Below are positions 1 to 55,124 of a DNA stretch of 64,000 nt, piece by piece; positions within the stretch are counted from its first letter, which is position 1; the number at the start of each line of letters is the position of its first letter. The position numbers and the translations under genes are program-made. The notes under the pieces are model-generated. The model was given only the letters and a program-made list of their open reading frames with translations. It ran no database searches and was not told the DNA's origin. The stretch comes from Catellatospora sp. IY07-71 (GTDB lineage Bacteria; Actinomycetota; Actinomycetes; Mycobacteriales; Micromonosporaceae): the NCBI RefSeq assembly GCF_018326265.1, contig NZ_AP023360.1, positions 6,569,001-6,633,000 of the forward strand, given 5' to 3'.

Positions 1-2405
1 GTCTCGCCGAGCTGGCCGCGAGCTGCGGCACGAGCCCGTTCACGGCGTACCTCACCGGCCTGGGCCTGCTGCTGGCCGGGCTCACCGCCCGCGGGGACGT
101 GCTGGTGGGCGCGGTCGCGGCCCGGCGTGCCGAGCCGGAGCTGGACCGGGTGGTCGGCCCGCTGGTCGACGTGCTGCCGGTGCGGCTGCGGCTGGACGGC
201 GACGCGAGTCTGCGCGACGCGCTGGTCATGGCCGCGGCGACGACGGCCCGCGCGCTGGACCTGCCCCGGCCGTCCACCGAGGACCTGTTCCAGGCGATCG
301 GCACCCAGCCGCGCGGCGCGATGCTCACCCCGGTGGTGCTGTCGGCGCAGCCGTCCGGGATGCCGGTGCGCGCCCGGGGCGGGGCGGTGACCCTCGAGCT
401 GCTGGGCGAGCTGGGCTGCGGCGGGGCGCAGAGTCCGCTGACGGTGTATGTCAACGAGACCGTGGACGGCACCGAGCTGCAGTTCGGGTACGACCTCGGC
501 CTGCTCGACGCGGCCGCCGCGGGCGCGTTCGCCGACCGGCTGCTGCTGGTGCTCGGCGGGCTTGCCGGCGACCCGGACCGGCCGCTGGCGCAGCTGCCGC
601 TGGTCGGCGACGCCGAGCGGGCGGAGCTGCTGCGCCGTGCCGCCGGACCCGCCCTGGGCGCGCCGCCGACGGTGGTCGACGCGATCGAGCGCCAGGTCGC
701 GGCGCGGCCGGACGAGTTAGCCGTCGTCGGAGCGGCGGGGCAGCTGACGTTTCGGGAGCTGTGGGACCTGTCGACCGAGGTCGCCGGGGTGCTGCGCGGC
801 GCCGGCACCGGCCGGGGCGACGTGGTGGGCGTCTGCCTGCCCCGTGACCACCGGCTGCCCTCGACGCTGCTGGGGGTGTGGCGCGCGGGCGCGGCGTACC
901 TGCCGCTGGAGCCGGAGCTGCCCGCCGAGCGGCTGGCGTGGCTGGCCGCCGACGGCGGCGCGCGGATCGTGCTGTGCCGTAAGGCCACCGCGGAAGCGGC
1001 GGCCGTGGCCGGGACACGGGCGCTCGACCTGGACGCCGCTCCCCCGGCCGAGAGGGTGGAGCTGGAGCCGGTGCTCGGTGCGGACCTGACCTACCTGCTG
1101 TACACGTCCGGCTCGACCGGCACCCCGAAGGGCGTCGCGGTGGCGCAGTCGGGGCTGTCGGCGCTGGCCGCCTCGCTCGGCCGGGAGCCGGGCATCGGCC
1201 CCGGCGACCGGATGCTCGCGGTGGCGACGCTCAGCTTCGACACTTCGTGCGCGGAGATCTGGTCGAGCCTGTCGGCGGGCGCGCGCTGCGTGGTCGTCGA
1301 GCGTGACGCGGCCGTGGACGGGCACCGGCTGGCCGAGCGCATCGCCGCGCACGGGATCACGGTGATGAACGTGCCGCCGACGATGCTGCGTACGCTGCTG
1401 GCCGCGGGCTGGGCCGGTGCTCCGGGCCTGCGCATCTGGAGTGGCGGCGAGACCCTCGACCCGGCCCTGGCCCGGGACCTGCTCGGCCGGGTCGGCGAGC
1501 TGTGGAACGTGTACGGCCCGACCGAGGCGACCGTGCTGTCGGCGGCGTACCGGGTGCACGTGGTGGACGAGACCGTCCCGATCGGGCACCCGATGCCCGG
1601 CGAGCGCCTCTACGTGATGGACCCGCTGGGCCGCCTCGCCCCGCCGGGCGCGGCCGGTGAGCTGTGGATCGGCGGCGCGGGACCGGCGCTGGGCTACCAC
1701 CGCCGCCCGGAGCTGACCGCGGCCGCGTTCGTGCCGGACCCGTACGTGCCGAGTGGGCGCTGCTACCGCACCGGCGACCTGGTGCGCCTGCGCGCCGACG
1801 GCGAGCTGGCGTTCTGCGGCCGCCGCGACCACCAGCTGAAGATCCGCGGCTACCGGGTGGAGCTGGGCGAGATCGAGTCGGCGCTGCGGGACCATCCGCT
1901 GGTCGCGCACGCGGTCGTGGTCGCGCACGGCCAGGGTGCCGAGGCGCACCTGGTCGGCTACCTGGTGGGCCGGGCCGCGATCACGGGAGATGAGGCCGCC
2001 GCGCACCTGCGCGCCCGGCTGCCCGAGTACCTGGTTCCGCACCGCTGGGTGGTGCTGGACGCGTTCCCGGTCATGCCCAGCGGCAAGGTGGACCTGGCCG
2101 CACTGCCGAGGCCGGGGGCAGACCGGCCGCACACACCGCCCGAGTCGGTGATGGAGCAGCTCGTCGCGGAGATCTGGGCGCAGACGCTGACCGCCGAGCG
2201 GATCGGGACGCAGGACAGCTTCTTCGGCCTGGGCGGCCACTCGCTGGCCGCGACGCGGGTGGCGGGGCGGCTGCGGGACACGCTCGGCTGTGCCGTGCCG
2301 GTGCGGCTGCTGTTCGACCATCCGGTGCTGTCGGAGTTCGCCCGGCAGCTGGAGAACCTTGTCATCGCCGAGATCGCGGCCGAGTCCGGCCTCCGGGGGA
2401 ACTGA
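1..2405 (+). CDS. NRPS module, 5'-truncated by window edge (C-A-PCP)
   Basis: The frame is open from nucleotide 3, so the gene begins upstream of the window. About 800 residues are visible. The first ~200 are the C-terminal half of a condensation domain. An adenylation domain follows, with A3 (YTSGSTGTPKG, near nt 1100), A5 (NVYGPTEAT), A7 (YRTGDLVR), A8 (GRRDHQLKIRGYRVELGEIE) and the A10 lysine (SGKVD). The carrier domain has LGGHSL, with the phosphopantetheine serine codon at about nt 2241. By hand alignment to GrsA-Phe the pocket reads roughly D-T-A-N-I-S-V-V-L-K; I cannot assign a substrate. The stop lies 2 bp before the next NRPS start, so the genes are coupled. Module identity is certain; the product is unknown. 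Confidence 0.96.
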   Translation, partial: LAELAASCGTSPFTAYLTGLGLLLAGLTARGDVLVGAVAARRAEPELDRVVGPLVDVLPVRLRLDGDASLRDALVMAAATTARALDLPRPSTEDLFQAIGTQPRGAMLTPVVLSAQPSGMPVRARGGAVTLELLGELGCGGAQSPLTVYVNETVDGTELQFGYDLGLLDAAAAGAFADRLLLVLGGLAGDPDRPLAQLPLVGDAERAELLRRAAGPALGAPPTVVDAIERQVAARPDELAVVGAAGQLTFRELWDLSTEVAGVLRGAGTGRGDVVGVCLPRDHRLPSTLLGVWRAGAAYLPLEPELPAERLAWLAADGGARIVLCRKATAEAAAVAGTRALDLDAAPPAERVELEPVLGADLTYLLYTSGSTGTPKGVAVAQSGLSALAASLGREPGIGPGDRMLAVATLSFDTSCAEIWSSLSAGARCVVVERDAAVDGHRLAERIAAHGITVMNVPPTMLRTLLAAGWAGAPGLRIWSGGETLDPALARDLLGRVGELWNVYGPTEATVLSAAYRVHVVDETVPIGHPMPGERLYVMDPLGRLAPPGAAGELWIGGAGPALGYHRRPELTAAAFVPDPYVPSGRCYRTGDLVRLRADGELAFCGRRDHQLKIRGYRVELGEIESALRDHPLVAHAVVVAHGQGAEAHLVGYLVGRAAITGDEAAAHLRARLPEYLVPHRWVVLDAFPVMPSGKVDLAALPRPGADRPHTPPESVMEQLVAEIWAQTLTAERIGTQDSFFGLGGHSLAATRVAGRLRDTLGCAVPVRLLFDHPVLSEFARQLENLVIAEIAAESGLRGN

Positions 2406-2407: not shown

Positions 2408-5400
2408 ATGACCATGACCGACGACACCCTGCGCGCCCTGATGGAGAAGCGGGTGGCCGCGGCGCAGGCCGCCGCCCGCACCACGCCCGGCACCACGATC
2501 CCGGCCCGCCGCGACCCCCACGCCCCGCAGCCGCTGTCGGCGGCGCAGCGGCGGCTGTGGTTCAACAGCCAGTTCGAGCACGACCCCGCGATCTACCACG
2601 TGCCGCTGGTGCTGCGCCTGTCCGGGCCACTGGACGGCGACGCGCTGCTCGGGGCGCTGCGCGCGGTCGTGCAGCGGCACGAGGTGCTGCGCAGCGTCAT
2701 CGCGCACCACGGCGACGAACCCATGGCCGTGGCCGGGCCCGCCGACCGGGTGAGCCTGACCCGCGCGGAGGTCACCGCCGCCGAGCTGGACGCGGCGATC
2801 GCCGCGGAGGTCGCCCGGCCGTTCCGGCTGGACGCGGAGCCGCCGCTGCGGGCGCTGCTGCTGCGGCTGTCCGAGCAGGAGCACGTGCTGGCGCTGACCG
2901 CGCACCACATCGCCACCGACGCCTGGTCCCAAGACCTGATCATGGACGAGCTGGCGGCGGGGTATGCGGCCGCGCGCGGGCAGGGCGCTCCCCCGGCCCC
3001 GGTGCGGCTGCAGTACGCCGACGTCACCGAGTGGGCGCAGGACCGCCCCGGCGGCGATGCCGGGTGGTGGGCCGAACGCCTGGCCGGGCTCGACCCGGTG
3101 CTGGCCCTGCCGACGGACCGGCCCTACCCGCCGGTCGCCGACTGGCGCGCGGGCTACGTACCGCTCACGCTGCCGCCGGAGCTGGCCCGGCGGGTGCGGG
3201 AGGTCGCCCGCGAGGCCGGGGCCACCCCGTTCATGGTGCTGCTGGCGGCCTGGCAGGCACTGCTGGGCAGGCTGTGCCGGACCGCCGACGTGCCGGTCGG
3301 TGTACCCGAGTCGGGGCGGCGGCACCGCGACACCGAGGGCGTCGTCGGCTGCTTCATCAACACCCTGGTCCTGCGCACCGACCTGTCCGGCGACCCGACC
3401 GGCCGCGAGCTGCTGGCCCGGGTGCGCGAGACCACCCTGGACGCGTTCGCCCACGCCGACGTGCCGTTCGAGCACGTGGTGGAGGCCGTCGCGCCGCAGC
3501 GCAGCACCGCCACCACGCCGCTGTTCCAGTCGATGCTGCTCCTGCTGGACGAGCCGCTGCGCGACCCGGTGCTGCCCGGCGTCACGGTGACCCGGCTGGA
3601 CTCGCCGCTGGACACCAACAAGTTCGACCTGTGCCTGTCGCTGACCGGCCACGCGGACGGCTATAACGGTTTCGTCAGCCACCGGGCGGACCTGTTGGAC
3701 CGGGCCACCGTGGCCCGGTGGGCGCGCTGGTTCACCCGCCTGCTCGACGGCTTGGTGGCCACCCCGGACCGCCGGGTGTCCGAGCTGGATCTGCTCGACC
3801 CGGCCGAGCGGGCCGAGCTGGTCTCCTGGGGCACCGGACCCGAGCTGCCCGCGGGGGCGCCCGCCACCGTGCTGGAGGCGGTGCTGGCGCAGGCGGCGGC
3901 CCGGCCGGACGCGGTCGCGGTGGACGCCCGCGACGGCAAGCTCAGCTACGGCGAGCTGGCCCGTGACTCGGCGGCCGTCGCGGCGGCGCTGCTGGCGCAC
4001 GGGGTCGAACGGGGTGCGCCGGTCGGGCTCTGCCTGCCCCGGCACCGGCACCTGCCCGCCGCGCTGGTGGGGGTGATGCGCGCCGGTGCGGCATACCTGC
4101 CGCTGGAGCCGGACCAGCCGGTGGCCCGGCTGCGGCACCAGCTCACCGACGCGGGTGCGGGCGTGCTGGTGGCCGCCGCCGACACCTGGGACCTGGCCCG
4201 GGAGCTGGCCGAGGGCACCGGCGCGGTGCTGCTGGACCTCGCCGACGCGCTGTCGGCCGAGCCCGCCGCGCTACCGGAGGTCGGTGCGGACGATCTCGTG
4301 TACGTGCTCTACACGTCCGGTTCGACCGGGCGGCCCAAGGGCGTGGAACTGACCCACGGCAACCTCGCCGCGTACGTCGCCGCCAACTGCGAGCTGCTCC
4401 CGGTCACCCCCGACGACGTGATGCTCGGGCTGACCGCGCTGTCGTTCGACGTGGCCGGGCTGGAGCTGTGGGTGGCGCTGACCAGGGGGCTGCGGCTGGC
4501 GCTGGTGGAGCGCTGCGACGCCGTGGACGGTCACCTGGTGGCGCGGCGGATCGCCGAGGCCGGGGTGACGGTGCTGACGGCGACGCCGACGACGTTCCGG
4601 ATGCTGGTCGCGGCTGATTGGCGGGCCCCGGACGTGCGCCTGGTCGCGATCGGCGAGGCCGTCGACCCGGGCCTGGCCCGCGAGCTGCTGGCCCGCACCG
4701 GCGAGGTGTGGAACGGCTACGGCCCCACCGAGACCGCGGTGACCTCGACGATGTACCGCGTGACGGCCCCGGTCGGCCCGACCGTGCCGATCGGCACGCC
4801 GATGGCCGGGGAACGGGTGTACGTGATGGACGCGGCCGGCCGCCTGGCCCTGCCGGGCACGGTCGGCGAGCTGTGGATCGGCGGGGCCGGGGTGGCGCGC
4901 GGCTACCGCGGGCGGCCCGACCTGACCGGGGCGGCGTTCACCGCCGACCCGCTGCGCCCGGACGAGCGCTGCTACCGCACCGGTGATCTGGTGCGCTGGC
5001 GCGCCGACGGGCTGCTCGACTTCGTCGGCCGCGACGACGGGCAGGTGAAGGTACGCGGGCACCGTATCGAGCTGGGCGAGATCGAGGTGCAGCTGCGGGC
5101 GGTGCCGGGCGTGGCGCAGGCGGCCGTGACGGTGGCCGCCGCGGGCGGAGACGCGCACCTGGTCGGCTACCTGGTGGCGGGGCCGGGGGCGGCCGTGTCC
5201 ACGGCGGAGCTGGAGACGCGGCTGCACGCGGTGCTGCCCGATCACATGGTGCCGCGCCGCTGGGCGCTGCTGGACGCGCTGCCGATCAACGCCTCCGGCA
5301 AGCTGGACCGCCGGGCGCTGCCCGAACCGCAGCGGGCGGTACGCGAGCACGTGCCGCCGCGCACCGAGGCCGAGGAGCTGGTGGCCGACGTGTGGGCCGC

Positions 5401-5602
5401 GGTGCTGCGCCGCGACGGCCTGTCGGTGCACGACGACTTCTTCGCCCTGGGCGGGCACTCGCTGGCGGCGACGCTGGTGGCCGGGCGGCTGCGCGAGGCG
5501 CTGGACCTGCCGGTGCCGGTGCGGCTGCTGTTCGAGCAGCCGGTGCTGGCCGGGTTCGCGGCCGCGCTGGAGGCGCTGCTGCTGGCGGAGGTGGTCCGGT
5601 GA
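2408..5602 (+). CDS. NRPS, single module C-A-PCP
   Basis: 1064 residues forming one complete elongation module. After a ~38-residue linker the C domain opens with the C1 motif (PLSAAQRRLWF) and has the catalytic motif HHIATDAWS (His166/His167, Asp171). The A domain has A3 YTSGSTGRPKG near residue 634, A5 NGYGPTETA, A7 YRTGDLVRW and A10 NASGKLDRR. The PCP serine is about Ser1018 in LGGHSL. The approximate pocket is D-V-L-T-V-I-G-V-T-K, with an unusual FDVAGLEL A4 region; I do not predict a substrate. No epimerase or methyltransferase domain is present. The ATG at 2408 is 2 bp after the preceding stop, and the gene overlaps the next by 4 bp (GTGA). It should condense its amino acid onto the chain from the upstream module. 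Confidence 0.97.
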   Translation: MTMTDDTLRALMEKRVAAAQAAARTTPGTTIPARRDPHAPQPLSAAQRRLWFNSQFEHDPAIYHVPLVLRLSGPLDGDALLGALRAVVQRHEVLRSVIAHHGDEPMAVAGPADRVSLTRAEVTAAELDAAIAAEVARPFRLDAEPPLRALLLRLSEQEHVLALTAHHIATDAWSQDLIMDELAAGYAAARGQGAPPAPVRLQYADVTEWAQDRPGGDAGWWAERLAGLDPVLALPTDRPYPPVADWRAGYVPLTLPPELARRVREVAREAGATPFMVLLAAWQALLGRLCRTADVPVGVPESGRRHRDTEGVVGCFINTLVLRTDLSGDPTGRELLARVRETTLDAFAHADVPFEHVVEAVAPQRSTATTPLFQSMLLLLDEPLRDPVLPGVTVTRLDSPLDTNKFDLCLSLTGHADGYNGFVSHRADLLDRATVARWARWFTRLLDGLVATPDRRVSELDLLDPAERAELVSWGTGPELPAGAPATVLEAVLAQAAARPDAVAVDARDGKLSYGELARDSAAVAAALLAHGVERGAPVGLCLPRHRHLPAALVGVMRAGAAYLPLEPDQPVARLRHQLTDAGAGVLVAAADTWDLARELAEGTGAVLLDLADALSAEPAALPEVGADDLVYVLYTSGSTGRPKGVELTHGNLAAYVAANCELLPVTPDDVMLGLTALSFDVAGLELWVALTRGLRLALVERCDAVDGHLVARRIAEAGVTVLTATPTTFRMLVAADWRAPDVRLVAIGEAVDPGLARELLARTGEVWNGYGPTETAVTSTMYRVTAPVGPTVPIGTPMAGERVYVMDAAGRLALPGTVGELWIGGAGVARGYRGRPDLTGAAFTADPLRPDERCYRTGDLVRWRADGLLDFVGRDDGQVKVRGHRIELGEIEVQLRAVPGVAQAAVTVAAAGGDAHLVGYLVAGPGAAVSTAELETRLHAVLPDHMVPRRWALLDALPINASGKLDRRALPEPQRAVREHVPPRTEAEELVADVWAAVLRRDGLSVHDDFFALGGHSLAATLVAGRLREALDLPVPVRLLFEQPVLAGFAAALEALLLAEVVR

Positions 5603-8600
5603 CGGTCACCGACACCCAGCGCAGCCTGCTGAAGTCGCGCCTGGCCCAGGCCCGGCGCACGGTCGCGGCCCCGGCGGGCATCCCCGCCGGTGACCCGGAC
5701 CAGCCCGCCCCGCTGTCGCGGGCGCAGGCCCGGCTGTGGTTCCTGCACCAGCTGGAGCCGGACAGCCCCGCCTACCACGTGCCCGCGGCGGTGCGGCTGC
5801 GCGGCCCGCTGGACACCGAGGCGCTGATCGCGGCGGTACGCGAGCTCGCCGCCCGGCACCACGTGCTGCGTACGACCTTCGCCGAGCACGACGGCGAGCC
5901 GCTGGCGGTGCTCGGCGACGCCGACCGGGTGCCGGTCGCGGTCGTCGACGCCGACCCGGCCCGGCTGACCGAACTGCTGCTGGCCTGCCGGGACCGGCTG
6001 TTCCGGCTGGACCGGGAGCCGCCGCTGCGGGCCGAGATCTTCCGCCTGGCCCCCGACGAGCACGTGCTGCTGCTGGTCGTGCACCACATCGCCTGCGACG
6101 CGTGGTCGCTGGACCTGATGCTGGGCGAGCTGGGCGAGCTGTACACCGCCCGGGTCGCCGACGGCCCGGCACCGGCGGCGCCGCCGCTGCAGTACGCCGA
6201 CTTCGCCCGCTGGCAGGCCGCCCGCCCCGCGCCGGAGTCCGACCTGGACTGGTGGGCCGGGCAGCTGTCCGGCCTGGAGCCGGTGCTGGACCTGCCGGTG
6301 GACCGGCCCCGGCCCGCGCTCGCCGACTGGTCGGCCGGGCAGATCCCGGTGGAGCTGCCCGCCGCGCTCGCCGAGCGCATCGGCGCGCTGGCCGCGGCGA
6401 GCGCGGCGACGCCGTTCATGGTGCTGCTGGCGGCCTGGCAGGCGACGCTGGCCCGGGTGTGCGGCACCGAGGACGTCGCAGTGGGGGTGCCGCACGCGGG
6501 CCGCCACCACCCCGGCGTGGAGCGGATGGTCGGCTGTTTCATCGGCACGCTGGTGCTGCGCGGCGACCTGTCCGGCGACCCGACCGGCCGTGAGCTGCTG
6601 ATCCGGGTACGCGAGCGGGCGCTGGACGCGTTCGGGCATGCCGAGACGCCGTTCGAGCGCATCGTGGACCGGCTCCAGCCGGAGCGTTACCTGGCCACCA
6701 CGCCGATCTTCCAGGTGCTGCTGAACGTGCTGGACACCCCGGCCGCGCCGCCGAGCCTGCCCGGCGCGGCCGAGCTGGAGCTGCCGATCCGCACCACCAA
6801 GTACGACCTGAACCTGGCGCTGTCCAGGACGGACGGCGGCTACCGGGGCGGCCTGCTCTACCGCGCCGACCTGTTCGACGAGGTCACCGCCCGGCGGCTG
6901 GCCGGCTGGTTCCGCACGCTGCTGGACGGGCTGGTCGCCGACCCGGACCGGCCGGTCGGCGAGCTGCCGCTGGAGGCGGCCCAGGTGGGCGGCCCGGACG
7001 GCCCGTGTGCCGAGTACGCGCTGGACCAGCCGCTGCACGCGCTGATCACCGGGCACGCCGTCACCAGCCCGCGTGCGGTGGCGGTGGTCGCCGCCGACGG
7101 GACGCTGGACTACGCCGAGCTGGACCGGCGCGCCTCGGTCGTCGCCGGGCGGCTGCTGGCGGCCGGGATGCGGCCGGAGGAGCCGGTCGCGGTGCTCACC
7201 GAACGCGGCGTCAGCCTGCCGATCGCGATGCTGGGCGTGCTCCGGGCGGGCGGCGTCTACCTGCCCGTGGACCCGGGCTACCCCGACGGGCGGCTGTCGG
7301 GCATCCTCGACACGGCCGGGGCCCGGTTCGTGCTGACCGAGGCCGAGCACGCCGGGCGGGTCCCGGGCCGCCAGGCCCTGGTGGTAGCCGAGCTGACCGG
7401 CGAACCCGCCGCGACCGTCACGGTGTCGCCCGACCGGCTCGCCTACCTGATCTTCACCTCGGGTTCGACCGGGCAGCCGAAGGGCGTCGCCGTCGAGCAC
7501 CGGCACATCACCCACTACCTGAACGCGGTCCGGGACCGGATCGGGCGGCCGGGCTCGTACGCCCTGGTGTCCACGCACGCCGCCGACCTGGGCCTGACGA
7601 ACCTGCTCGGCGCGCTCACCACCGGCGCGACGGCGTACCTGGTGGACCGGGAGACCGCCACCGACCCGGGCGCGTTCGCGGCGTACCTGGCCGCGCACCC
7701 GGTCGACGCGGTCAAGATGGTGCCCAGCCACCTGGAGCTGCTGGCCGCGCACGGCGACCTCGCCGCGCTGCTCCCCCGGCGGCTGCTGGTCCTGGCCGGC
7801 GAGCCGGTCCCGTGGGAGCTGGTGGAGCGGGTCGAGCGGGCCCGGCCGGACCTGGACGTCCAGGTCCACTACGGACCGACGGAGACCACCGTGTCGGTGC
7901 TCGGCTGCCGCACCGCCGACATCCCGGCTGCTCAGCGGCACGGCATCGTGCCGATCGGGCTGCCCTTCGCGAACGTGCGCTGCCGGGTGACCGACCCGGC
8001 CGGGCGCGAGGTGCCCGCCGGGGTGCCCGGCGAACTGCGCCTGGGCGGCCCGAGCGTGGCGCGCGGCTACCTGGGGCTTGCCGACGGCCGCTTCGACGGC
8101 GGCTGGTACCGCTCCGGCGACCGGGTGCGGGTGAACGCGGCCGGGCTGGTCGAGATCCTGGGCCGGGTCGACGACCAGGTGAAGATCCGCGGCTTCCGGG
8201 TGGAACTCACCGAGGTCGCCACCGCGCTGCGGGAGGTGGCCGGGGTGGGCGAGGCCGTGGTGCTGCCGGTCGGGCAGGCGCACACCCGGCGGCTGGCCGC
8301 GTGGATCACGCCCGCGAGCGCCGATCCGGTGCTGGTCCGGGCCGCGCTGCGGGACCGGCTGCCCGACTACATGGTCCCGGCCGCGATCACGCCCCTGGCA
8401 GCGCTGCCGCTGACCGCCAACGGCAAGGTGGACCGGGCCGCGCTGCCCGAGCCCGCACCGCCCGCGGCGGCCGGCGGGACACCGCCGTCGACGCCGATGG
8501 AGCAGCGGGTCGCCGCCGCCTGGGCGCAGGTGCTGGAGTGCGGCGAGGTCGGCGTGGACGACGACTTCTTCGCCCTCGGCGGGGACTCGTTCAAGGCCGT

Positions 8601-10878
8601 CCGGGCGGTGCGCGCCATCGACCCGCAGCTGCGCGTGATCGACCTGTTCACCCGCCCCACGGTGCGCGAGCTGGCGGCGCACCTGGACGGCGGCGCCCGC
8701 CCCGGCGGGCTGCTGCACCGGCTGGCCGGTCCGGCCACGGCCACGCTGACCGTGGTGTGCGTGCCGTACGGCGGCGGCTCGGCGGCCGCGTACGGTCCCT
8801 TCGCGACGGAGCTGGCGCAACGGCTGCCGGACACGGCCGTGCTGGCCGTCGAGCTGCCCGGCCACGACCCGGCCCGCCCGGACGAGCCGCAGCTCCCGCT
8901 GCCCGACCTGATCGACCGGATCGCCGCCGAGCTGCCCGCGGGTCCCGTGCTCGTCTACGGGCACTGCGTCGGCTCGGCCGCGGCCACCGAACTCGCACTG
9001 CGTCTGGAAGCGGACGGCCGCGAGGTCGCCGGGCTGGTCGTCGGCGGCAGCTTCCCCGCGGCCCGGCTGCCCGGACGCCTGTCGGCCTGGCTGCACCGGC
9101 GCTTCCCGGCGACCTGGTGGACGTCGGACCGGGCGTACCGGGACTTCCTGCGTTCGCTGGGCGGCCTGGACGACGACGAGGGGCTCGACGCGGACGTCAT
9201 CCTGCGCGGCCTGCGCCACGACGTGGACCAGGCGCAGTCCTGGTTCACGCACGAGCTGACCCGGCCCGACCGGCGGCGGCTGCGGGCCCCGGTGCTCTGC
9301 GCGATCGGCGCCCGCGACCGCTCCACCGAACTCTACGAGGAGCGCTACGCCGAGTGGGGCGCGTTCGCCGACCGGGTCGAGCTGGCCGTGGTGCCCCGCG
9401 CGGGCCACTACTTCCTCAAGCACCAGGCGTCGTGGCTGGCCGAACGGGTCGCCGCCGCGATCGCGGGCTGGCGCGCGGGCAAGCTGCCACCTCCGCTGGC
9501 CGCGGACTCGGTGACCGGCGGCGCGGCCCGCCGCGACCTGCGCGAGTTCTACCTGATGGCGGCCGGGCAGTCGATCTCGCTGATCGGGGCGGCGCTCAGC
9601 TCGTTCGCGCTGGGCGTGTGGGCGTATCAGCAGAGTGGCCGGGTGGCCGACTACGCACTGGTCACCATGCTCGCCCTGCTTCCCGCGATCCTGCTGCTGC
9701 CGCTGGGCGGCGCGGTCGCCGACCGGGTGGACCGGCGGCGCGTCATGCTGGCCTGCAACGGGATGGGCGCGCTGGTCATGTCCACGATGGTCGCGCTGCT
9801 GGCCGTCGACCGGCTCAGCATCGCCGGGGTCGGAGTGCTGGTCGGGCTGCTGTCGGCGGTGACCGCGTTCCACCGGCCGGCGTACCTGGCGGCGGTGGCG
9901 CAGCTGGTGCCCAAGCCGTATCTGGGCCAGGCCAACGCGCTGGCGAACCTGGGACCGGGCATCGGCCAGCTGATCGCCCCGCTGGCCGGTGGGGCGCTGA
10001 TCACCGCGCTGGGCCTGCCCGGAGTCGTGGTGGTGGACGTGCTGTCGCTGCTGGCCGGGTTCGCCACGCTGCTCGCGGTGCGGCTCCCGGACCGGCTGTT
10101 CCGGCGGCAGGAGGAGACGTTCACCAGGGCGATCGCGGGCGGCTGGCGCTTCCTGGTCCGGCGGCGACCGTTCCTGATCATGATCGGGTTCTTCGTGGTG
10201 GAGAACTACCTGGCCATGCTCGCCCTCGCGGTCACCGTGCCCACGGTGTACGCCTTCAGCGACGCCACCGGCGTCAGCGTCGTCACCGCCTGCAGCGGCC
10301 TCGGCGCGGGACTCGGCGCGCTGGCCATGGTGCTGTGGGGCGGCTCGCAGCGCCGCGCCCTCGGCATGGTCGGCTTCGTCTCCGGCGTCGGCCTCGGCGC
10401 GCTGCTGGTGGGCCTGCGCCCGTCGCTGGCGGTGGCCGCCGCCGGCAGCCTCGTCTGGTACGCGTCGCTGACCGTCCTCAACGCCCACTGGCTGGCTCTG
10501 ATCCAGGTCAAGGTCGGCCTCGACCTGCAGGGCCGGGTCCTGGCCACCAACCAGATGCTCGCCGTCGCCATGACCCCGCTGGCGTTCCTCACCGCACCGC
10601 CACTGGCCGAAGCGGTCCAGCCGCTGCTGATGCCGGGCGGGGCGCTCGCCACGACGGTCGGACGGGTGGTCGGCGTGGGTGACGGCCGCGGCAACGCCCT
10701 CATCCTGATCGCCTGCGGGCTGGCCCTGGCGATCTGGGGCCTGCTCGGCCTGGCCTACCGGCCGCTGCGCCGGATGGAGGACGACCTGCCCGACGCCGTG
10801 ACCGGCGCGGAGATCGCCGACAGCCTCGACGAGGTCCAGGCCGCCGCCGACCGCCTGGCGGCCGCGAGCGCACGCTGA
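5599..10878 (+). CDS. Terminal NRPS fused to MFS exporter (C-A-PCP-TE-MFS)
   Basis: 1759 residues from the GTG at 5599, chosen because it forms a GTGA overlap with the previous stop and begins at the usual N-terminal linker. Order: C domain (HHIACDAWS near residue 162), A domain (FTSGSTGQPKG near 620, HYGPTETT), PCP (LGGDS, about Ser997), thioesterase, then from about residue 1314 a full MFS transporter of roughly 12 membrane segments resembling the EntS/MFS_3 group. The TE nucleophile elbow reads GHCVG (Cys1123) where Ser is usual; candidate acid Asp1240 and base His1270 (AGHYFL). The A4 region lacks the common FD and reads THAADLGLTN. Known family roles: the TE releases the peptide and MFS proteins export small molecules. 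Coupling of release to export at the membrane is inference. No frame break separates the two halves. Confidence 0.96.
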   Translation: MTVTDTQRSLLKSRLAQARRTVAAPAGIPAGDPDQPAPLSRAQARLWFLHQLEPDSPAYHVPAAVRLRGPLDTEALIAAVRELAARHHVLRTTFAEHDGEPLAVLGDADRVPVAVVDADPARLTELLLACRDRLFRLDREPPLRAEIFRLAPDEHVLLLVVHHIACDAWSLDLMLGELGELYTARVADGPAPAAPPLQYADFARWQAARPAPESDLDWWAGQLSGLEPVLDLPVDRPRPALADWSAGQIPVELPAALAERIGALAAASAATPFMVLLAAWQATLARVCGTEDVAVGVPHAGRHHPGVERMVGCFIGTLVLRGDLSGDPTGRELLIRVRERALDAFGHAETPFERIVDRLQPERYLATTPIFQVLLNVLDTPAAPPSLPGAAELELPIRTTKYDLNLALSRTDGGYRGGLLYRADLFDEVTARRLAGWFRTLLDGLVADPDRPVGELPLEAAQVGGPDGPCAEYALDQPLHALITGHAVTSPRAVAVVAADGTLDYAELDRRASVVAGRLLAAGMRPEEPVAVLTERGVSLPIAMLGVLRAGGVYLPVDPGYPDGRLSGILDTAGARFVLTEAEHAGRVPGRQALVVAELTGEPAATVTVSPDRLAYLIFTSGSTGQPKGVAVEHRHITHYLNAVRDRIGRPGSYALVSTHAADLGLTNLLGALTTGATAYLVDRETATDPGAFAAYLAAHPVDAVKMVPSHLELLAAHGDLAALLPRRLLVLAGEPVPWELVERVERARPDLDVQVHYGPTETTVSVLGCRTADIPAAQRHGIVPIGLPFANVRCRVTDPAGREVPAGVPGELRLGGPSVARGYLGLADGRFDGGWYRSGDRVRVNAAGLVEILGRVDDQVKIRGFRVELTEVATALREVAGVGEAVVLPVGQAHTRRLAAWITPASADPVLVRAALRDRLPDYMVPAAITPLAALPLTANGKVDRAALPEPAPPAAAGGTPPSTPMEQRVAAAWAQVLECGEVGVDDDFFALGGDSFKAVRAVRAIDPQLRVIDLFTRPTVRELAAHLDGGARPGGLLHRLAGPATATLTVVCVPYGGGSAAAYGPFATELAQRLPDTAVLAVELPGHDPARPDEPQLPLPDLIDRIAAELPAGPVLVYGHCVGSAAATELALRLEADGREVAGLVVGGSFPAARLPGRLSAWLHRRFPATWWTSDRAYRDFLRSLGGLDDDEGLDADVILRGLRHDVDQAQSWFTHELTRPDRRRLRAPVLCAIGARDRSTELYEERYAEWGAFADRVELAVVPRAGHYFLKHQASWLAERVAAAIAGWRAGKLPPPLAADSVTGGAARRDLREFYLMAAGQSISLIGAALSSFALGVWAYQQSGRVADYALVTMLALLPAILLLPLGGAVADRVDRRRVMLACNGMGALVMSTMVALLAVDRLSIAGVGVLVGLLSAVTAFHRPAYLAAVAQLVPKPYLGQANALANLGPGIGQLIAPLAGGALITALGLPGVVVVDVLSLLAGFATLLAVRLPDRLFRRQEETFTRAIAGGWRFLVRRRPFLIMIGFFVVENYLAMLALAVTVPTVYAFSDATGVSVVTACSGLGAGLGALAMVLWGGSQRRALGMVGFVSGVGLGALLVGLRPSLAVAAAGSLVWYASLTVLNAHWLALIQVKVGLDLQGRVLATNQMLAVAMTPLAFLTAPPLAEAVQPLLMPGGALATTVGRVVGVGDGRGNALILIACGLALAIWGLLGLAYRPLRRMEDDLPDAVTGAEIADSLDEVQAAADRLAAASAR

Positions 10879-16538: not shown

Positions 16539-18491
16539 TCACTGGTGACTGGACCAGGTCGCGAACATGCCCGCGTAGCGGCCCTCCGCGGCCAGCAGCT
16601 CGGCGTGCGATCCGATCTCGACGATGCCCGCCTCGTCGAGCACCACGATCCGGTCGGCCCGCATCGCGGTGGACAGCCGGTGCGCGATCAGCAGCGCGGT
16701 CCGCCCCTCCAGCAGCCGGTCGAGGGCCTGCTCGACGCGCAGCTCCGAGCGCAGGTCCAGGTTGGACGTGACCTCGTCGAGCACCACGACGCGGGGCCGG
16801 GCCAGGAAGGCCCGCGCCAGCGCCAGCAGCTGCCGCTGGCCCGACGACACGGACTGGCCCCGCTCGTGCAGCGGCGCGTCCAGCCCGGCCGGGGTGCGCT
16901 CGACCAGGTCACGCAGCCCCACGGCGTCGACGGCCGCCCAGATCTCCGCGTCGTCGGCGTCCGGCCGGGCGAAGGCGATGTTGTCGCGGATCGACCCGGC
17001 GAACATGAACGGCTCCTGCGGCACCACGCCGATCTGCCGGCGCAGCGACGTCAGGCTCACGTCACGCAGGTCGTGCCCGTCGATGAGGACCCGCCCGAAG
17101 TCCGGGTCGTGCAGCCGGGTGACCAGCTTGGCCAGCGTCGACTTGCCCGCCCCGGTCGGCCCCACGCACGCGATGGTCTCCCCCGGCTCGATGCGCAGGG
17201 TGATGTCGCGCAGCACCGGCCGAGCCGGGTCGTAGCCGAAGGTGACCTGCTCGAACGTGATCCCCCCGGCCACCGGCGGCAGCGTGACCGGGTCGGCGCG
17301 CTCGGGCACGGCCGGCTCCAGCGCCAGCAGCCCGCGCAACTTGCTCACGGCCGCGCGGCTCTGCTGGTAGTTGGTGTAGAGCTGCACCAGCTGCTGCACC
17401 GGGGCGAAGAACGCGTTGAGGTACAGCACGAACGCGGTCAGCACACCCACCGTCAGCTCGCCGCGCAGCACCATGTGGCCGCCTGCCAGCAGCAGCGCGG
17501 CCATGCCGAGCATGCCGATGACCGAGGTGCCCGGCCCGTAGATCGCGCTGATGTGGCCGGTGAAGTCGTTGGCGTCGCGGTAGCGGCCGACGACGGTGCG
17601 GTGCTGGGCGATGTTGCGGTCCTGGCGGTGGTACGCGGTGACCACGCGGACGCCATGCAGGCTCTCGGCGAGGTCGGTGAACATGGCCGCGATGGTGTCG
17701 CGCTGGCGGGCGTAGCCGACGTCGGAGGCGCGCCGGAACCACAGCGACGCGGCGAACAGCGCGGGCACGACCAGCAGCAGCGTGAGCGCGGCCAGCCCGG
17801 CGTCGTAGTGGATCAGAACCGCGGTCACCACGACCATGGTCAGGCCCTGCACCGCGAACTGGGCCAGGCCCTCCTGGAGCAGCTGCTGCAGCGACTCGAC
17901 GTCCGACGACATCCGGGTCATGATGACGCCGGCCTTCTCGTTGGTGTAGTAGTCCATGGACAGCCGCTGCAGGTGGGTGAAGACGCGGACCCGCAGGTCG
18001 CGCATGCCGTCGGCGGCCAGGCGGCCGGTCTGGCGCATCCGCGCGGTGGTGGCCGCCCAGCCCGCGAGCACCGCGACCACGAACGCCCCCGCCGACCACA
18101 ACAGCACCGGCAGGTCGCGGGCCACGATGCCGTGGTCGATGCCGACCTGCACCAGGTACGGCCCCGCCTGCAGCAGCAGGGTCTCGGCCAGCACCGTGGC
18201 GCACGCGGCGGCGAACAGCCCGCGGCGGCGGGTGAGCAGCCCCAGCATGCTCAGCTGCGGCTCGCCGCCGGGCCGGTGGGCGAAGCGGTCGGGCGGGGTG
18301 CCGTGGTCGGGTTCGCTGTCCTCCAGCCGCCGTACGCCCGCCGCCAGCTCGTCCGGGATGCCCGCGAACGGCAGCCCCACGGCGCCGTCGCGGCGCGCGC
18401 CCCGCCCCGCGCCCACGGCCGACAGCCCGCCCATCGGCCCCGACCCGGGACCGCCGCCCGGACCGCCGAACCCGCCGCCGAACATGCTCAT
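16539..18491 (-). CDS. ABC exporter half-transporter (TMD-NBD), consensus Walker B
   Basis: 650 residues. An unusual Gly/Pro-rich N-terminus (MSMFGGGFGGPGGGPGSG) and ~80-residue cytosolic extension precede six membrane helices (~95-380). The ATPase domain has Walker A GPTGAGKST, Q-loop VPQEPF, Walker B VVVLDEVTSNLD with the catalytic Glu, and AHRLST. The signature is degenerate (VSSGQ instead of LSGGQ). Its partner, encoded just upstream, has the reciprocal pattern (good LSGGQ, Asp in place of the Walker B Glu). Together they form the one-consensus, one-degenerate pair typical of heterodimeric exporters such as TM287/288. ATG overlaps the partner's stop. The substrate is unknown. Confidence 0.95.
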   Translation of the reverse strand: MSMFGGGFGGPGGGPGSGPMGGLSAVGAGRGARRDGAVGLPFAGIPDELAAGVRRLEDSEPDHGTPPDRFAHRPGGEPQLSMLGLLTRRRGLFAAACATVLAETLLLQAGPYLVQVGIDHGIVARDLPVLLWSAGAFVVAVLAGWAATTARMRQTGRLAADGMRDLRVRVFTHLQRLSMDYYTNEKAGVIMTRMSSDVESLQQLLQEGLAQFAVQGLTMVVVTAVLIHYDAGLAALTLLLVVPALFAASLWFRRASDVGYARQRDTIAAMFTDLAESLHGVRVVTAYHRQDRNIAQHRTVVGRYRDANDFTGHISAIYGPGTSVIGMLGMAALLLAGGHMVLRGELTVGVLTAFVLYLNAFFAPVQQLVQLYTNYQQSRAAVSKLRGLLALEPAVPERADPVTLPPVAGGITFEQVTFGYDPARPVLRDITLRIEPGETIACVGPTGAGKSTLAKLVTRLHDPDFGRVLIDGHDLRDVSLTSLRRQIGVVPQEPFMFAGSIRDNIAFARPDADDAEIWAAVDAVGLRDLVERTPAGLDAPLHERGQSVSSGQRQLLALARAFLARPRVVVLDEVTSNLDLRSELRVEQALDRLLEGRTALLIAHRLSTAMRADRIVVLDEAGIVEIGSHAELLAAEGRYAGMFATWSSHQ

Positions 18492-20293
18492 GCGGCCACT
18501 CCCTGGTCGATGCCGCTGTCCACGCGGTCATGGCCGGACTGCATGGTGGCCAAAACCTCGGTGTAGCGGGGCTCGCCGGCCACCAGCTCGGCGTGGGTGC
18601 CCTGCGCGGCGACGCGGCCGTCCTCGATCAGCACCACGGTGTCGGCCAGGGCGATGGTGGACAGCCGGTGCGCGACGATGACCGTGGTCCGCCCGTGCAG
18701 CAGTCCGCGCAGGGCGTCGTGGATGCGCTGCTCGACGTGCACGTCGACGGCGCTGGTGGCGTCGTCGAGCACCAGCACCGGCGGGTTGACCAGCAGCGCG
18801 CGGGCGATCGCGACGCGCTGGCGCTGCCCGCCGGACAGGGTGTACCCGCGCTCGCCGATGACGGTGTCGTAGCCGTCGGGCAGGGCGCGCACGAACCCGT
18901 CCGCCCCGGCGGCCTCGGCGGCGGCCACCACCTCGGCCAGGCTCGCGTCCGGGCGGCCGAAGGCGATGTTGTCGCGGATGGACACCGAGAACAGGAACGG
19001 CTCGTCGGGCACGATGCCGACCTGGTCGCGCAGCGTGTCCAGGGCGTAGTCGCGGACGTCGCGGCCGTCGAGGCGCACCGTGCCGGCGGTGGCGTCGTAG
19101 TAGCGGGCCAGCAGCCTGGCGACGGTCGACTTGCCGCTGCCGGTGCGGCCCACCACCGCGACCGTGGTGCCCGCGGGGATGCGGAGGTCCAGCCCGCGCA
19201 GCGCCACGGTGCCGTCCGGGTACGCGAAGTCGACCCCGGCGAACTCGATGTCTCCGCGCAGGCGTGTGCGGACCGGGTCGGCGCGTTCGGCGATCTCGCT
19301 GCGGGTGTCGAGCACCTCGTAGATGCGCTGGGCGGAGGCGGCGGCCCGCTGGCCCATCATGATCATCATGCCGAGCATGCGGAACGGCGGCTGGAGCATG
19401 AGCACGTACGAGTTGAACGCGACGATCGCGCCGACCGAGGCGTGTCCCTCGATCGCCATCCAGCCGCCGCACAGCAGCACCATCGCCAGGCCCAGCCGGG
19501 GCAGGTTCTCCAGCGTGGGCGACCAGCGGCTGCGGATGAACGCGTCACGCCGGTAGGCCCAGCGCACCCGGTCGGCCGCCGCCGCCAGCTGCGTCACCTG
19601 GCGCTGCTCGCCCGCGAACGCCTTGACGATGCGCACCCCGTTGATCGCCTCGTCGACGACCGTGGCGACCTGAGCCAGCCGGGACTGGATCAGCCACGAC
19701 ACCGGGAAGATGGCCTTGCGCATCCACACGCCCATCAGCGCGATCACCGGCATGGTGGCCATCGCGACCACGGCCAGCAGCGGATCGATCGACACCATCA
19801 GCGCGAACGCGAACACCGCGATCAGGCACTGCACCAGGATCGACGGCCCGAACGCCAGGTACATCTGCACGGCCCGGATGTCCGAACCGGACCGCGACAT
19901 CAGCTCGCCGGTCTGCACCCGGTCGTAGAAGCCGTACGGCATCCGGATCAGGTGCGCGTACATGATGTTGCGCAGGTCGTACTCGATCTCGTACGCGGTG
20001 CGCAGCAGATAGCGCCGGGCCAGGTAGTTGACGAAGCCCTGCGCCACGGCCAGCCCCGCCAGCCACCACACGTACCGGTCCAGGCTCGCGGTCCGGGCGA
20101 CGAGCGCGTCGTCGATGCCCAGGCGCAGCACGTTCGGGATCTGCACCTGCACCAGCAGGCCGACCAGCGACAGGGTGAGCGACGTCAGCAGCAGCCCTTT
20201 GTGCGCCAGCACCACCGGCAGCGCGCGCCGCAGCCATGACCTGCTCTGGTCGGGATCGATCGTCGACTCGGGGGCACGGTATGGCGCGGACAT
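18488..20293 (-). CDS. ABC exporter half-transporter (TMD-NBD), degenerate Walker B
   Basis: 601 residues. The ATG at 20293 is chosen because it follows a CTGGAG ribosome-binding sequence and precedes a normal cytosolic N-terminus; a longer form would start at 20341. Six membrane helices are followed by an NBD with Walker A VGRTGSGKST, VPDEPF in which the Q-loop Gln is replaced by Asp, LSGGQRQRVAIARAL and Walker B VLVLDDATSAVD (Asp for the catalytic Glu). These losses mark the degenerate site of a heterodimeric exporter. It is cotranscribed with the downstream partner (4-bp overlap). Confidence 0.95.
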   Translation of the reverse strand: MSAPYRAPESTIDPDQSRSWLRRALPVVLAHKGLLLTSLTLSLVGLLVQVQIPNVLRLGIDDALVARTASLDRYVWWLAGLAVAQGFVNYLARRYLLRTAYEIEYDLRNIMYAHLIRMPYGFYDRVQTGELMSRSGSDIRAVQMYLAFGPSILVQCLIAVFAFALMVSIDPLLAVVAMATMPVIALMGVWMRKAIFPVSWLIQSRLAQVATVVDEAINGVRIVKAFAGEQRQVTQLAAAADRVRWAYRRDAFIRSRWSPTLENLPRLGLAMVLLCGGWMAIEGHASVGAIVAFNSYVLMLQPPFRMLGMMIMMGQRAAASAQRIYEVLDTRSEIAERADPVRTRLRGDIEFAGVDFAYPDGTVALRGLDLRIPAGTTVAVVGRTGSGKSTVARLLARYYDATAGTVRLDGRDVRDYALDTLRDQVGIVPDEPFLFSVSIRDNIAFGRPDASLAEVVAAAEAAGADGFVRALPDGYDTVIGERGYTLSGGQRQRVAIARALLVNPPVLVLDDATSAVDVHVEQRIHDALRGLLHGRTTVIVAHRLSTIALADTVVLIEDGRVAAQGTHAELVAGEPRYTEVLATMQSGHDRVDSGIDQGVAA

Positions 20294-20397
20294 CACACTC
20301 CAGGGATGAGCGGATGGACGGGCGGACATCCACGATGGCACGCCGCCCGGCCCGCGGTAACCGTAGCGGCTGTTCAGTCACGAAGTAGCCCCCTCGG

Positions 20398-30699: not shown

Positions 30700-31833
30700 T
30701 CACGCCCGGCGGGAGGTTTGAAACCGCTGGTCAGGCCGTTCGGAGGAGCCCGGATGAGCTGCGCGGCGGGTGCCGGTGACCATACGGGCGTCACGGGCGG
30801 CGAACCAGCCGCGCAGCCAGTGGTAGGTGGCCATGGGCGGAATGAGCACGCTGGTGGCGACCATGGTCAGGCGCTCGGCGGCCTGCGGCGGGCCGGGCCG
30901 GATGCGCGCGAGCGCGAACTCCCCCGTGCCCGCCGCCCAGCCCAGGGCGCTCGCCGCGCAGGTGACGGCGGCCGTGCGCCGGGTCGCCGGGCGGCGGGTC
31001 AGCGCGGTCACCACCCCGGAGACCACGGCCAGCACGCCGCACGCGGTGATGGCGGTGTGCCGGGTGCGGCGGCCGCGCGGCACCTCCAGCAGCTGCCGCC
31101 AGCGCGGGCCGTACAGGCGGCGCAGCAGCGCGTCGTCGGCGTTGCCGCGCTGGGTGCGCACGCTCACCCAGCGGTCCTCGGACCGCACCGGGTGGCGTAC
31201 CCGGCGCAGCCCGTGGCGCAGCTGCCAGCCCGCCGCGCGCACGCGGAACGCCAGCTCGGCGTCCTCCCGGTAGGCGCGCGGGAAGCGCTCGTCGAAGCCG
31301 CCCGCGGCGGCCAGCGCCTCGCGGCGGTACGCCATGTCGGCGGTGATCCAGCGGCCGGTCTCCAGGCCCGCGGTGCAGCGCTCCCAGTCGGTGGGCCGCC
31401 GGTCATGCGGCAGCGGCACCTCGATCCGCCCCAGCACCCCGCCGACCGGGTCCGGTGCGGCCAGGTCGTGCAGCAGCGCGCGCAGCCAGCCGGGGCGCGG
31501 CAGCACGTCGTCGTCGAGGAAGGCCACCCACGGGTGCCGCGCGTGCCGCCAGCCGACGTTGCGGGCGGCGGCCGGGCCCGCGCCGCGCCCGGCCAGCACT
31601 CGGGTGCACGCCCGCAGCGCAGCGGGCACGGTCACCTCGACCGGCCGGTCTCTGACGATCAGCAGCTCGACGGGCGCACCGTCGCCGACCTCCCGGGCCA
31701 GGATGCGCAGCAGCGCGTCGAGGCTCGGCCGCCCGACGGTCGGGATCACGATGCTGACCCCGCCGCCGGGCGGCGACCACGGCAGGCCGCCGCCGCTGAC
31801 CGGGCGCACCAGGTGCGGATGCACGGCGGTCAC
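30700..31833 (-). CDS. GT2 family glycosyltransferase
   Basis: 377 residues from the GTG at 31833, which overlaps the stop of the carbamoyltransferase (GTGA), so the two are coupled. The GT-A domain starts GGGVSIVIPTVGRPSLDALLRI and contains the nucleotide-sugar/metal motif WVAFLDDDVLPRPGW and YREDAELAFRVRAAGW. Two or three hydrophobic segments near the C-terminus suggest membrane attachment. It should move a sugar from an NDP-donor to an acceptor. Its position next to the heptose genes suggests a surface glycan or glycosylated product. Confidence 0.9.
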   Translation of the reverse strand: MTAVHPHLVRPVSGGGLPWSPPGGGVSIVIPTVGRPSLDALLRILAREVGDGAPVELLIVRDRPVEVTVPAALRACTRVLAGRGAGPAAARNVGWRHARHPWVAFLDDDVLPRPGWLRALLHDLAAPDPVGGVLGRIEVPLPHDRRPTDWERCTAGLETGRWITADMAYRREALAAAGGFDERFPRAYREDAELAFRVRAAGWQLRHGLRRVRHPVRSEDRWVSVRTQRGNADDALLRRLYGPRWRQLLEVPRGRRTRHTAITACGVLAVVSGVVTALTRRPATRRTAAVTCAASALGWAAGTGEFALARIRPGPPQAAERLTMVATSVLIPPMATYHWLRGWFAARDARMVTGTRRAAHPGSSERPDQRFQTSRRA

Positions 31834-33488
31834 GCCCCGCCGAACGCCGCCGCTCGGCGGACCGTGTACGGGCCGAGCACCAGCAGCGCCACCGGCGCCG
31901 CCCCGAACAGCTCCATGGCCTGGCGGGGCGTGTCGACGATGGGCTGCCCCGCGATGTTGAGCGACGTGTTGACCAGCACCGGCAGCCCGGTACGGCGGTC
32001 GAACTCGGCCAGCACCGAGGCCATCCGCGGCTCGGCGGCCGGGTCGACCGTCTGCACCCGTGCCGTGCCGTCGACGTGCACCACGGCCGGGATGCGCTCC
32101 CGCCAGCCGTCCCGCACCCGGTGCGTGAACAGCATGTACGGGCTGGGCAGCTGCCCCTCGAAGATCTCCGCCGCACGCCCGGCCAGCACCATCGGGGCCA
32201 CCGGCCGGAAGTGCTCGCGGCCCTTGATGTCGTTGAGCCGGGCGGTGGTGGCCGGATCGCCCGGGTTGGCCAGCAGCGAGCGGTGCCCCAGCGCGCGGGG
32301 GCCGTACTCGGCGCGCCCGTCGTACCAGGCGACCACGCCGTTGTCCGCCAGCACTCGCGCCACGACGGCGGCCAGGTCGCCGGGGCGTTCGTACGGCAGC
32401 GCGGCGCGGATGAGCTCCGCCTCCAGCTCGGCGTCGGGGAAGCCGCGGCCCAGGTCCGCGCCGGGCATGGGCTCCGGCAGCACGTCGGCCTCGGCGCTCA
32501 GGTGCAGCGCCGCGCCCAGTGCGGTGCCCGCGTCGCCCGCGGCGGGCTGGACCCATACCCGCTGATAGGGCCCTTCCGCCGCGAGACGGGCGTTGGCGAC
32601 GCAGTTGAGGGCGACGCCGCCCGCCATCGCGAGCCGGGCCGGGCCGCCGGCCGCGTCGTGCAGCCAGCCGGCCAGTTCCAGCAGGACCTCCTCCAGCCGG
32701 CGCTGCACGCTGGCGGCCAGGTCGGCGTGCTCGGGGTCGAGCCGGTCGTCCTCGCCGTGCCGGGGCTTGGCCAGCGCGGCCCAGTCCACGGCCGCGACCT
32801 GGAAGCCGCCGTCGGCAGTGGTCCGCACCAGCTCGCGGAACAGCGGCAGGAAACGGGGCCGGCCGTAGGAGGCCAGGGCCATCACCTTGTACTCGTCGCT
32901 GGAGCGCAGGAAGCCCAGGTGCGCGGTGAGGTCCTCGTAGAGCAGCCCGAGCGAGTGCGGCAGCCGCTGCCCGGCCAGCACCTCCAGCCGCCCGTCGCGG
33001 TAGCGCCCGGCCAGGTGGCTGGCGGCCTCGCCGCGCCCGTCCAGGACCAGGACCGCGGTGTCCTCGTCCGGCGGGTACGGCGCGGCCAGCGCGGCCGAGG
33101 CGGCATGCGCGACGTGGTGGGGCACGAACCGGACGGCGGCCGGGTCGAGGCCCGGCAGCGCCTCGGCGAGGAACGCCGGGGCGCGGCGGGCGTAGTCCTG
33201 GCGCAGCCAGTCCCACGGGTCGTCCAGGCCCAGCTCGTCCGCGGGCGCGCAGCGGCCGGGGTCGAAGGAGTAGCCGACCGCGTCAAGCTCGTCCGCGCCG
33301 ATGCCGGCCTCGTCGAGGCACCAGCGGGCCGACAGCACCGGCAGCTCCCAGGCGGAGAACGGCACCGGCCGCTTGCCGTGCTTGCGGCGGCTGAACCGCT
33401 CCTCCTCGGCGGCCGCGACGGTCGTCCCGTCCACCACCAGGGCCGCCGCCGGGTCGTGGAACACCGCGTTGATCCCGAGCACCTTCAT
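31830..33488 (-). CDS. NodU/TobZ-type carbamoyltransferase
   Basis: 552 residues. N-terminal MKVLGINAVFHDPAAALVVDG and EEERFSRRKHGKRPVPF are the hallmark of the family; VPHHVAHAASA, SSDEYKVMALASYGRP, LAMAGGVALNCVANAR and the C-terminal YreC-like AEYGPRALGHRSLLA are also present. Such enzymes transfer a carbamoyl group from carbamoyl phosphate, via carbamoyladenylate, to a sugar hydroxyl. Here the likely acceptor is a heptose, by analogy with carbamoyl-heptose in some Gram-negative cores; this is inference. It is divergent from the HAD-GT9 gene with ~200 bp between them and coupled to the GT2 gene. Confidence 0.93.
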   Translation of the reverse strand: MKVLGINAVFHDPAAALVVDGTTVAAAEEERFSRRKHGKRPVPFSAWELPVLSARWCLDEAGIGADELDAVGYSFDPGRCAPADELGLDDPWDWLRQDYARRAPAFLAEALPGLDPAAVRFVPHHVAHAASAALAAPYPPDEDTAVLVLDGRGEAASHLAGRYRDGRLEVLAGQRLPHSLGLLYEDLTAHLGFLRSSDEYKVMALASYGRPRFLPLFRELVRTTADGGFQVAAVDWAALAKPRHGEDDRLDPEHADLAASVQRRLEEVLLELAGWLHDAAGGPARLAMAGGVALNCVANARLAAEGPYQRVWVQPAAGDAGTALGAALHLSAEADVLPEPMPGADLGRGFPDAELEAELIRAALPYERPGDLAAVVARVLADNGVVAWYDGRAEYGPRALGHRSLLANPGDPATTARLNDIKGREHFRPVAPMVLAGRAAEIFEGQLPSPYMLFTHRVRDGWRERIPAVVHVDGTARVQTVDPAAEPRMASVLAEFDRRTGLPVLVNTSLNIAGQPIVDTPRQAMELFGAAPVALLVLGPYTVRRAAAFGGA

Positions 33489-49768: not shown

Positions 49769-49819
49769 CGGGCTACCTCACAGAGCTCGGTGTGCGGACA
49801 GCGGCGGGTCCGGCCCCGG

Positions 49820-51925: not shown

Positions 51926-51999
51926 GGGAACTCTCCTTGGGATGAGAGGCGAGGCGGGCCCCTCACCTGCGCTCGTACGCCGGTGAGGGGCCCGTCGCG

Positions 52000-54870: not shown

Positions 54871-54938
54871 GAAGACCCTTCCTGACAAGTGATGGCCAGG
54901 CGGGCGCGAACCATCGCGCCGATGCCGTGGGGGTGCTG

Positions 54939-55101: not shown

Positions 55102-55124
55102 GTTATCAGGTAGTCGGCTCGGTC

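Follow-up and report, generated by a model that had tools for sequence, protein, structure and literature searches.

A nonribosomal peptide synthetase termination module with a cysteine thioesterase is fused to a complete MFS exporter in Catellatospora sp. IY07-71

Results

The synthetase genes and the fused frame

The stretch of DNA analysed here (the window) comprises 64,000 nucleotides of Catellatospora sp. IY07-71 (assembly GCF_018326265.1, contig NZ_AP023360.1, positions 6,569,001 to 6,633,000, forward strand), an actinomycete of the Micromonosporaceae whose 8.6 Mb genome is a single contig. It begins within a set of three nonribosomal peptide synthetase (NRPS) genes, the last of which, gene 3 (5599..10878, +; 1759 aa, GTG start), encodes condensation (C), adenylation (A), peptidyl carrier (PCP) and thioesterase (TE) domains followed in the same frame by an exporter of the major facilitator superfamily (MFS). 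Gene 1 is represented by its 3' part (1..2405, +); its frame of 1686 aa, A-PCP-C-A-PCP by Pfam, stays open to 2656 bases left of the window, and its true start may lie about 96 bases later, since orthologues align from about codon 33. Gene 2 (2408..5602, +; 1064 aa) reads C-A-PCP by Pfam, and its TGA stop overlaps the GTG start of gene 3. Together the three genes form a four-module NRPS line in which gene 3 comes last.

The gene 3 frame has no internal stop, and Pfam places all five of its domains above the respective family cut-offs. In order along the forward strand they are the C domain (5707..6966; aa 37-456), the A domain (7057..8427; aa 487-943, with AMP-binding at 487-825 and the C-terminal part at 872-943; pocket code DLTKVAHVSK), the PCP domain (8503..8685; PP-binding, aa 969-1029) and an ObiF1-like TE domain (8731..9450; about aa 1045-1284, Pfam Thioesterase from 1051), which in one protein make up an NRPS termination module. 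A linker (9451..9516; about aa 1285-1306) leads to the MFS exporter domain with 12 predicted spans (9517..10755; about aa 1307-1719; motif A GGAVADRVDRRR) and its C-terminal tail (10756..10875). A first-pass annotation of this DNA had described one uninterrupted C-A-PCP-TE-MFS frame, and the stop-free frame at 5599-10878 and its Pfam domains bear this out.

An NRPS and an exporter are usually separate genes. That annotation had named a frameshift error at about nucleotide 9500 as grounds for refuting the single frame, and a sequencing or annotation artefact joining two genes was considered accordingly. A scan of named genomes confirmed 436 relatives, and in the best 80, which were kept and to which some species contribute two loci, TE and MFS share one stop-free frame in 80 of 80 cases. 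Separate searches with the TE and with the MFS through 81 same-family genomes gave the same arrangement: 52 of the 60 TE matches (E <= 1e-15) are followed by an MFS in frame. The artefact explanation is thereby already refuted, and we regard its probability as negligible. Because the best 80 were chosen by their match to the TE-MFS query, they show that the fusion is real and give no frequency; they belong to the Actinomycetota (68), Chloroflexota (8), Bacillota (3) and Spirochaetota (1).

The remaining eight TE matches consist of one at a contig end, five Cys-TEs with no MFS in frame, and two small TEs of 260 and 298 aa that stand alone, look like type II enzymes and carry Ser. As for the MFS matches in these genomes, 24 of 76 do not adjoin such a TE, one of them looking like the other part of a gene divided over two contigs. 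Four MFS matches beside a TE were listed with one stop each; in L165 the stop could be placed at residue 432 of 452, close to where the protein would normally finish, and the remaining three show none in shorter alignments.

The thioesterase

The closest solved relative of the TE is ObiF1 (sequence match, E 4e-37). With a profile of the PCP-TE-MFS part, ObiF1 again came first (2.5e-81) and SulM second (4.2e-47), and the fold matches of the TE rank the same two proteins. Cys1123 (codon 8965..8967, +), the predicted nucleophile in YGHCVG, Asp1240 (9316..9318, +), the predicted triad Asp in the so-called position II, and His1270 (9406..9408, +), the predicted triad His, align with the ObiF1 triad Cys1146/Asp1254/His1284 as given in the accessible sections of PMC6668435. 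A Gly of the gene 3 TE likewise aligns with ObiF1 Gly1173, in position I (PMC6668435, PMC11298585, accessible sections). The domain thus has these sequence features of an ObiF1-type Cys-TE: a Cys within GxCxG, the triad Asp at position II and a Gly at position I. The combination of Cys with Asp in position II is tied to beta-lactone and beta-lactam formation in the available text of PMC11298585, according to which type II TEs have the Asp position too.

ObiF (ObiF1), the obafluorin NRPS (PDB 6n8e), matches the gene 3 PCP-TE part best in both sequence and fold and, as far as the available sections describe it, likewise has a terminal C-A-PCP-TE whose TE carries a catalytic Cys, the position II Asp and the position I Gly (PMC6668435). 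It differs from gene 3 in having an MbtH-like domain at its C-terminal end, where gene 3 has an exporter, and in its terminal residue, a beta-hydroxy amino acid (PMC6668435, same sections); the gene 3 pocket looks Asp-like. The TE of SulM, from sulfazecin biosynthesis (PDB 8w2c/8w2d), shares the Cys nucleophile and the Asp in position II, but has Gln-Cys-Asn where gene 3 has His-Cys-Val (PMC11298585, sections available). We considered membership of the SulM beta-lactam group and ruled it out, the Gln-Cys-Asn motif being absent. Neither 'MFS' nor 'transporter' is mentioned in the text of the SulM paper (PMC11298585).

The nucleophile is kept as Cys in 79 of the 80 relatives and, within the partly overlapping family set, in 29 of 30 fused proteins. 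In a second clade the motif is one residue longer (GHCGxG), and in one locus (L178) the triad His is not visible in the alignment. Because the five TEs lacking an MFS have Cys too, the Cys appears to track the TE family rather than the fusion alone.

The exporter and its linker

Pfam MFS_1 covers aa 1321-1655 with 84.5 bits (cut-off 33.4) and MFS_3 scores 47.9 bits (cut-off 27), while TIGR00900 stays below its own cut-off (147 vs 319.6). An AlphaFold model of the PCP-TE-MFS part, built from an 81-row alignment, has a mean pLDDT of 85.8 and a pTM of 0.82, and 12 transmembrane spans were counted in its helices, taking 480-534 as two and 549-561 as none. Across 81 sequences motif A varies little or not at all at its residues, and with its 12 helices, this motif and its Pfam scores the domain is an MFS transporter by sequence and model. 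The complete exporter of about 12 helices proposed earlier is therefore confirmed at the level of prediction. In its 12 spans it is like the MFS drug/H+ antiporters (MFS_3, TIGR00900), relatives that we take to be EntS-like, and it differs from them by its fusion to an NRPS. The fold matches of the MFS part include MdfA; a sequence search of the PDB with this part alone returned one match, at chance level (E 0.58).

Compared with the orthologues L036, L037 and L038, dN/dS is 0.09-0.19 for the TE, 0.20-0.34 for the MFS and 0.39-1.09 for the linker, and compared with two more distant relatives it is 0.37-0.56 for TE and MFS, all values being rough owing to the high G+C content. These sequence comparisons indicate a complete MFS of 12 predicted spans that is under purifying selection. 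Pairwise distances of all five domains correlate with one another (75 of the 81 sequences), the TE-MFS pair most strongly (r 0.947, partial 0.60).

Conservation of the junction had been suggested as a check on the fusion. The fusion itself is kept in all 80 relatives; the junction varies in length, and few parts of the protein are under weaker constraint. Because of this variable length and weak constraint, it looks like a tether and not a fixed conduit, and the earlier idea that the product might be handed directly to the exporter is not supported by it.

Unfused relatives and the origin of the fusion

Relatives of the exporter also occur as genes of their own. Near 16 of 23 standalone MFS relatives we found a C domain (E <= 1e-20), in 13 of these cases upstream and on the same strand, and near 22 of the 23 there was at least one match to an NRPS-type domain, some of them A-type only, which could also come from other AMP ligases. 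The upstream frames of ten standalone relatives, read by eye beyond those tested with Pfam, gave six reductase-like ends, two C-type ends, one TE with Ser and one that was unreadable. In L199, L200, L203, L205, L206 and L208 the standalone MFS directly follows an NRPS seemingly ending in a thioester reductase, an end confirmed by Pfam in L206. In Nostoc sp. UHCC 0870, an NRPS gene of C-A-PCP-TE type, with GYS in its TE, is followed after 1 nt by an MFS gene. Judged from these sequences, this is a Rosetta-stone pattern, in which one exporter family stands either beside NRPSs or fused to them. One locus (L207) was considered as a second independent fusion and dropped, because no NRPS can be read from the frame that precedes its MFS.

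A quick tree of the MFS domain placed 51 fused rows on one side of a single branch and 26 standalone rows opposite (support 99). A more careful tree separated 45 fused from 16 standalone rows across a single branch with support 100/98; it dropped 16 of the 77 rows (nine long or divergent standalone rows and seven near-copies or near relatives), which the quick tree had kept. Both trees fit one ancient fusion, and the fused MFS is apparently of single origin. Among phage records no match was found. Plasmid records gave 13 matches, two of which were inspected: one has no features at the site, and the other shows separate NRPS and then MFS genes.

Terminal residue and related clusters

The terminal A domains of the relatives have Lys at position 278 in 76 and His at position 322 in 74 of the 79 whose code is readable, the code of one of the 80 being unreadable. 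We take this pattern, and DLTKVAHVSK with it, to mark a putative Asp-type pocket; the pocket codes had no match in the literature searched, and the nearest solved A domains did not settle the terminal substrate. In the second clade, four of seven loci have what we presume to be a Ser-type code (DVWH[IV]SLIDK) and three an Asp-like one. At the four Ser-type loci, all in same-family genomes (L187, L188, L189, L192), another NRPS gene and a TauD-like gene lie in the vicinity; for L188, the one tested, Pfam shows a polyketide synthase (PKS) gene and then TauD upstream. By analogy, a Ser pocket together with an ObiF-type TE would predict a beta-lactone, and these four are candidate serine beta-lactone clusters.

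In five loci (L061, L062, L065, L087, L197) PALP, ornithine-cyclodeaminase-like and carbamoyltransferase genes lie 3' of the fused NRPS (by Pfam for L197), and the pocket reads DFTK[IV]AHMIK. This gene set looks like one for diaminopropionate supply and carbamoylation. We rejected diaminopropionate as a general terminal residue: of 92 loci scanned, just five have this gene set on their 3' side, and each of these has the DFTK-type pocket. Because it is restricted to those loci, this reading was not extended to the window locus.

The smallest clusters, four from Herpetosiphon and two from Paenibacillus (L091, L094, L098, L099, L106, L112), consist of an A-PCP-type gene, a glycosyltransferase-like gene and the fused C-A-PCP-TE-MFS gene (Pfam was run for L091). 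A PPTase-like gene is present in the four Herpetosiphon clusters. The minimal cluster common to Herpetosiphon and Paenibacillus suggests transfer between phyla.

Limits of the cluster and neighbouring genes

The closest named relative is C. bangladeshensis, with 97.7% identity in gene 3. All or parts of the three NRPS genes occur in order in four orthologous loci, three of Catellatospora and one of Dactylosporangium. Of the flanking genes, nine downstream and seven upstream were tested, and these adjoin the C. bangladeshensis locus as well. Beside the other three loci, the nine downstream genes were not found within about 10 kb (E <= 1e-20), nor were the seven upstream genes within about 13 kb (E <= 1e-10). 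Since the NRPS genes are kept in four loci and the flanks are common to C. bangladeshensis only, the conserved cluster seems to consist of the three NRPS genes, without a separate exporter. Nor does this apparent content include a sulfotransferase gene, the cluster mark of SulM-type beta-lactam thioesterases, although no search aimed at one was made.

Two adjacent ABC exporter genes (16542-20341, -) appear to lie outside the cluster, because among the four orthologous loci they too are common to C. bangladeshensis only. A carbamoyltransferase gene (Pfam Carbam_trans_N/C; 31833-33488, -) was set aside from the cluster because of its distance of about 21 kb from the NRPS genes. Further along, a run of carbohydrate-active genes (48254-59962) includes arabinofuranosidase, ThuA, GSDH and GH43; ricin-type lectin domains were found in four of the five genes tested and CBM6 in three.

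Discussion

We think it fairly likely that gene 3 encodes a terminal 'release and export' module, which tethers an exporter to a Cys-thioesterase and exports the product that the latter releases, and that peptide release and export are probably coupled. The last module would add an Asp-like residue, and the peptide would pass from the PCP to Cys1123 of the ObiF1-type TE, which may free it by hydrolysis or, closer to what its TE relatives do, by cyclising it intramolecularly. As part of the same protein, the MFS, which is of the proton-antiporter type, would keep the synthetase on the membrane's inner face and export the product where the TE releases it. Release at the membrane, as the first-pass annotation had proposed, is supported by the fused frame if the protein stays uncleaved. 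Tethering and a fixed ratio of the two activities follow from the fusion itself. We infer that the MFS works outwards, on the product made by the assembly line to which it belongs; the benefit of the fusion would presumably lie in keeping the two close together at a fixed 1:1 ratio and in clearing the product quickly, rather than in a sealed channel.

Several observations weigh against this reading. The TE does not need the pump, because five of the 60 TE matches are Cys-TEs with no MFS in frame. One fused protein (L066) has Ser as its nucleophile, and in another locus (L183) GHG replaces GHC in a TE-MFS frame of 769 aa that lacks a PCP. The junction that spans 40 aa in the window ranges from 29 to 90 aa over the 81 sequences. 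In a weakly supported TE tree the fused TEs do not all fall on one side of one branch (two changes). A phylum-wide sample matched in three of 396 genomes at E <= 1e-60, the window's own being the sole fusion and the other two standalone MFS, although this count is a lower bound, as two candidates were scored per genome. The direction of transport and the substrate are inferred, and a plain benefit of co-expression would conserve the fusion too.

This last point leads to the possibility that the MFS is an ordinary exporter, for which the fusion secures just equal expression and placement at the membrane, with no gain at the release step. The unfused MFS relatives adjoining NRPS genes, the variable and weakly constrained linker and the five Cys-TEs without an MFS all agree with it. 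However, the single apparent origin, the lack of any loss of the fusion within the fused group of the MFS trees and the spread over four phyla suggest more than convenience, and it is the TE and the MFS that covary most strongly among the domain pairs; on balance we find this explanation doubtful. It is quite improbable that the MFS part is transport-dead and a mere membrane anchor for the synthetase: any membrane domain would serve that purpose, and transport by members of the group is predicted from sequence, but the domain is complete with its 12 spans, its motif A is nearly invariant, and its dN/dS is about as low as that of the catalytic domains.

A further reading, drawn by analogy and in our view unlikely, sees the fusion as a safety device. 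The Cys-TE would form a ring, strained or electrophilic, at the terminal residue, and the tethered pump would expel the product before it could acylate the cell's own proteins. Under this reading the ring would be a serine beta-lactone in the Ser-pocket members of the second clade and another strained form for the Asp-like pocket. Were it true, the fusion would mark a widespread, uncharacterised family of reactive products in at least four phyla that could be mined by its C-A-PCP-TE(Cys)-MFS signature.

In the open literature searched, no report of a bacterial NRPS with C-A-PCP-TE-MFS architecture came up. According to the first-pass annotation, similar fusions are present among database entries. 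Enzymes fused to a transporter of their product or substrate are known in MprF (synthase and flippase) and in the Aas-type MFS-acyltransferase-AMP ligases; these are not NRPSs, have other chemistry and are unrelated fusions. In fungi, the available part of PMC9495618 prints, in a table, a Verticillium synthase model as KS-AT-ACP-ACP-TE-MFS, and that of PMC11057048 gives, in passing, a hybrid PKS-NRPS string with Te-MFS for Ophiocordyceps. Like gene 3, these strings have TE and then MFS, but as far as these parts show they are gene models of fungal PKS or PKS-NRPS enzymes, and the fusion as such is not discussed there. In a further literature match the MFS domains are located in neighbouring genes.

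Termination modules of NRPSs, Cys-TEs and MFS exporters are each known singly; what is new is the variant that joins them in a conserved fusion. To our knowledge, the transfer of NRPS products from the assembly line to an exporter is a largely open field. With the 'release and export' module proposed here, the coupling of the two steps becomes directly testable, because both are joined in one chain. The fusion also offers a clean genome-mining handle for Cys-TEs related to those that form beta-lactones and beta-lactams, in clusters of as few as about three genes.

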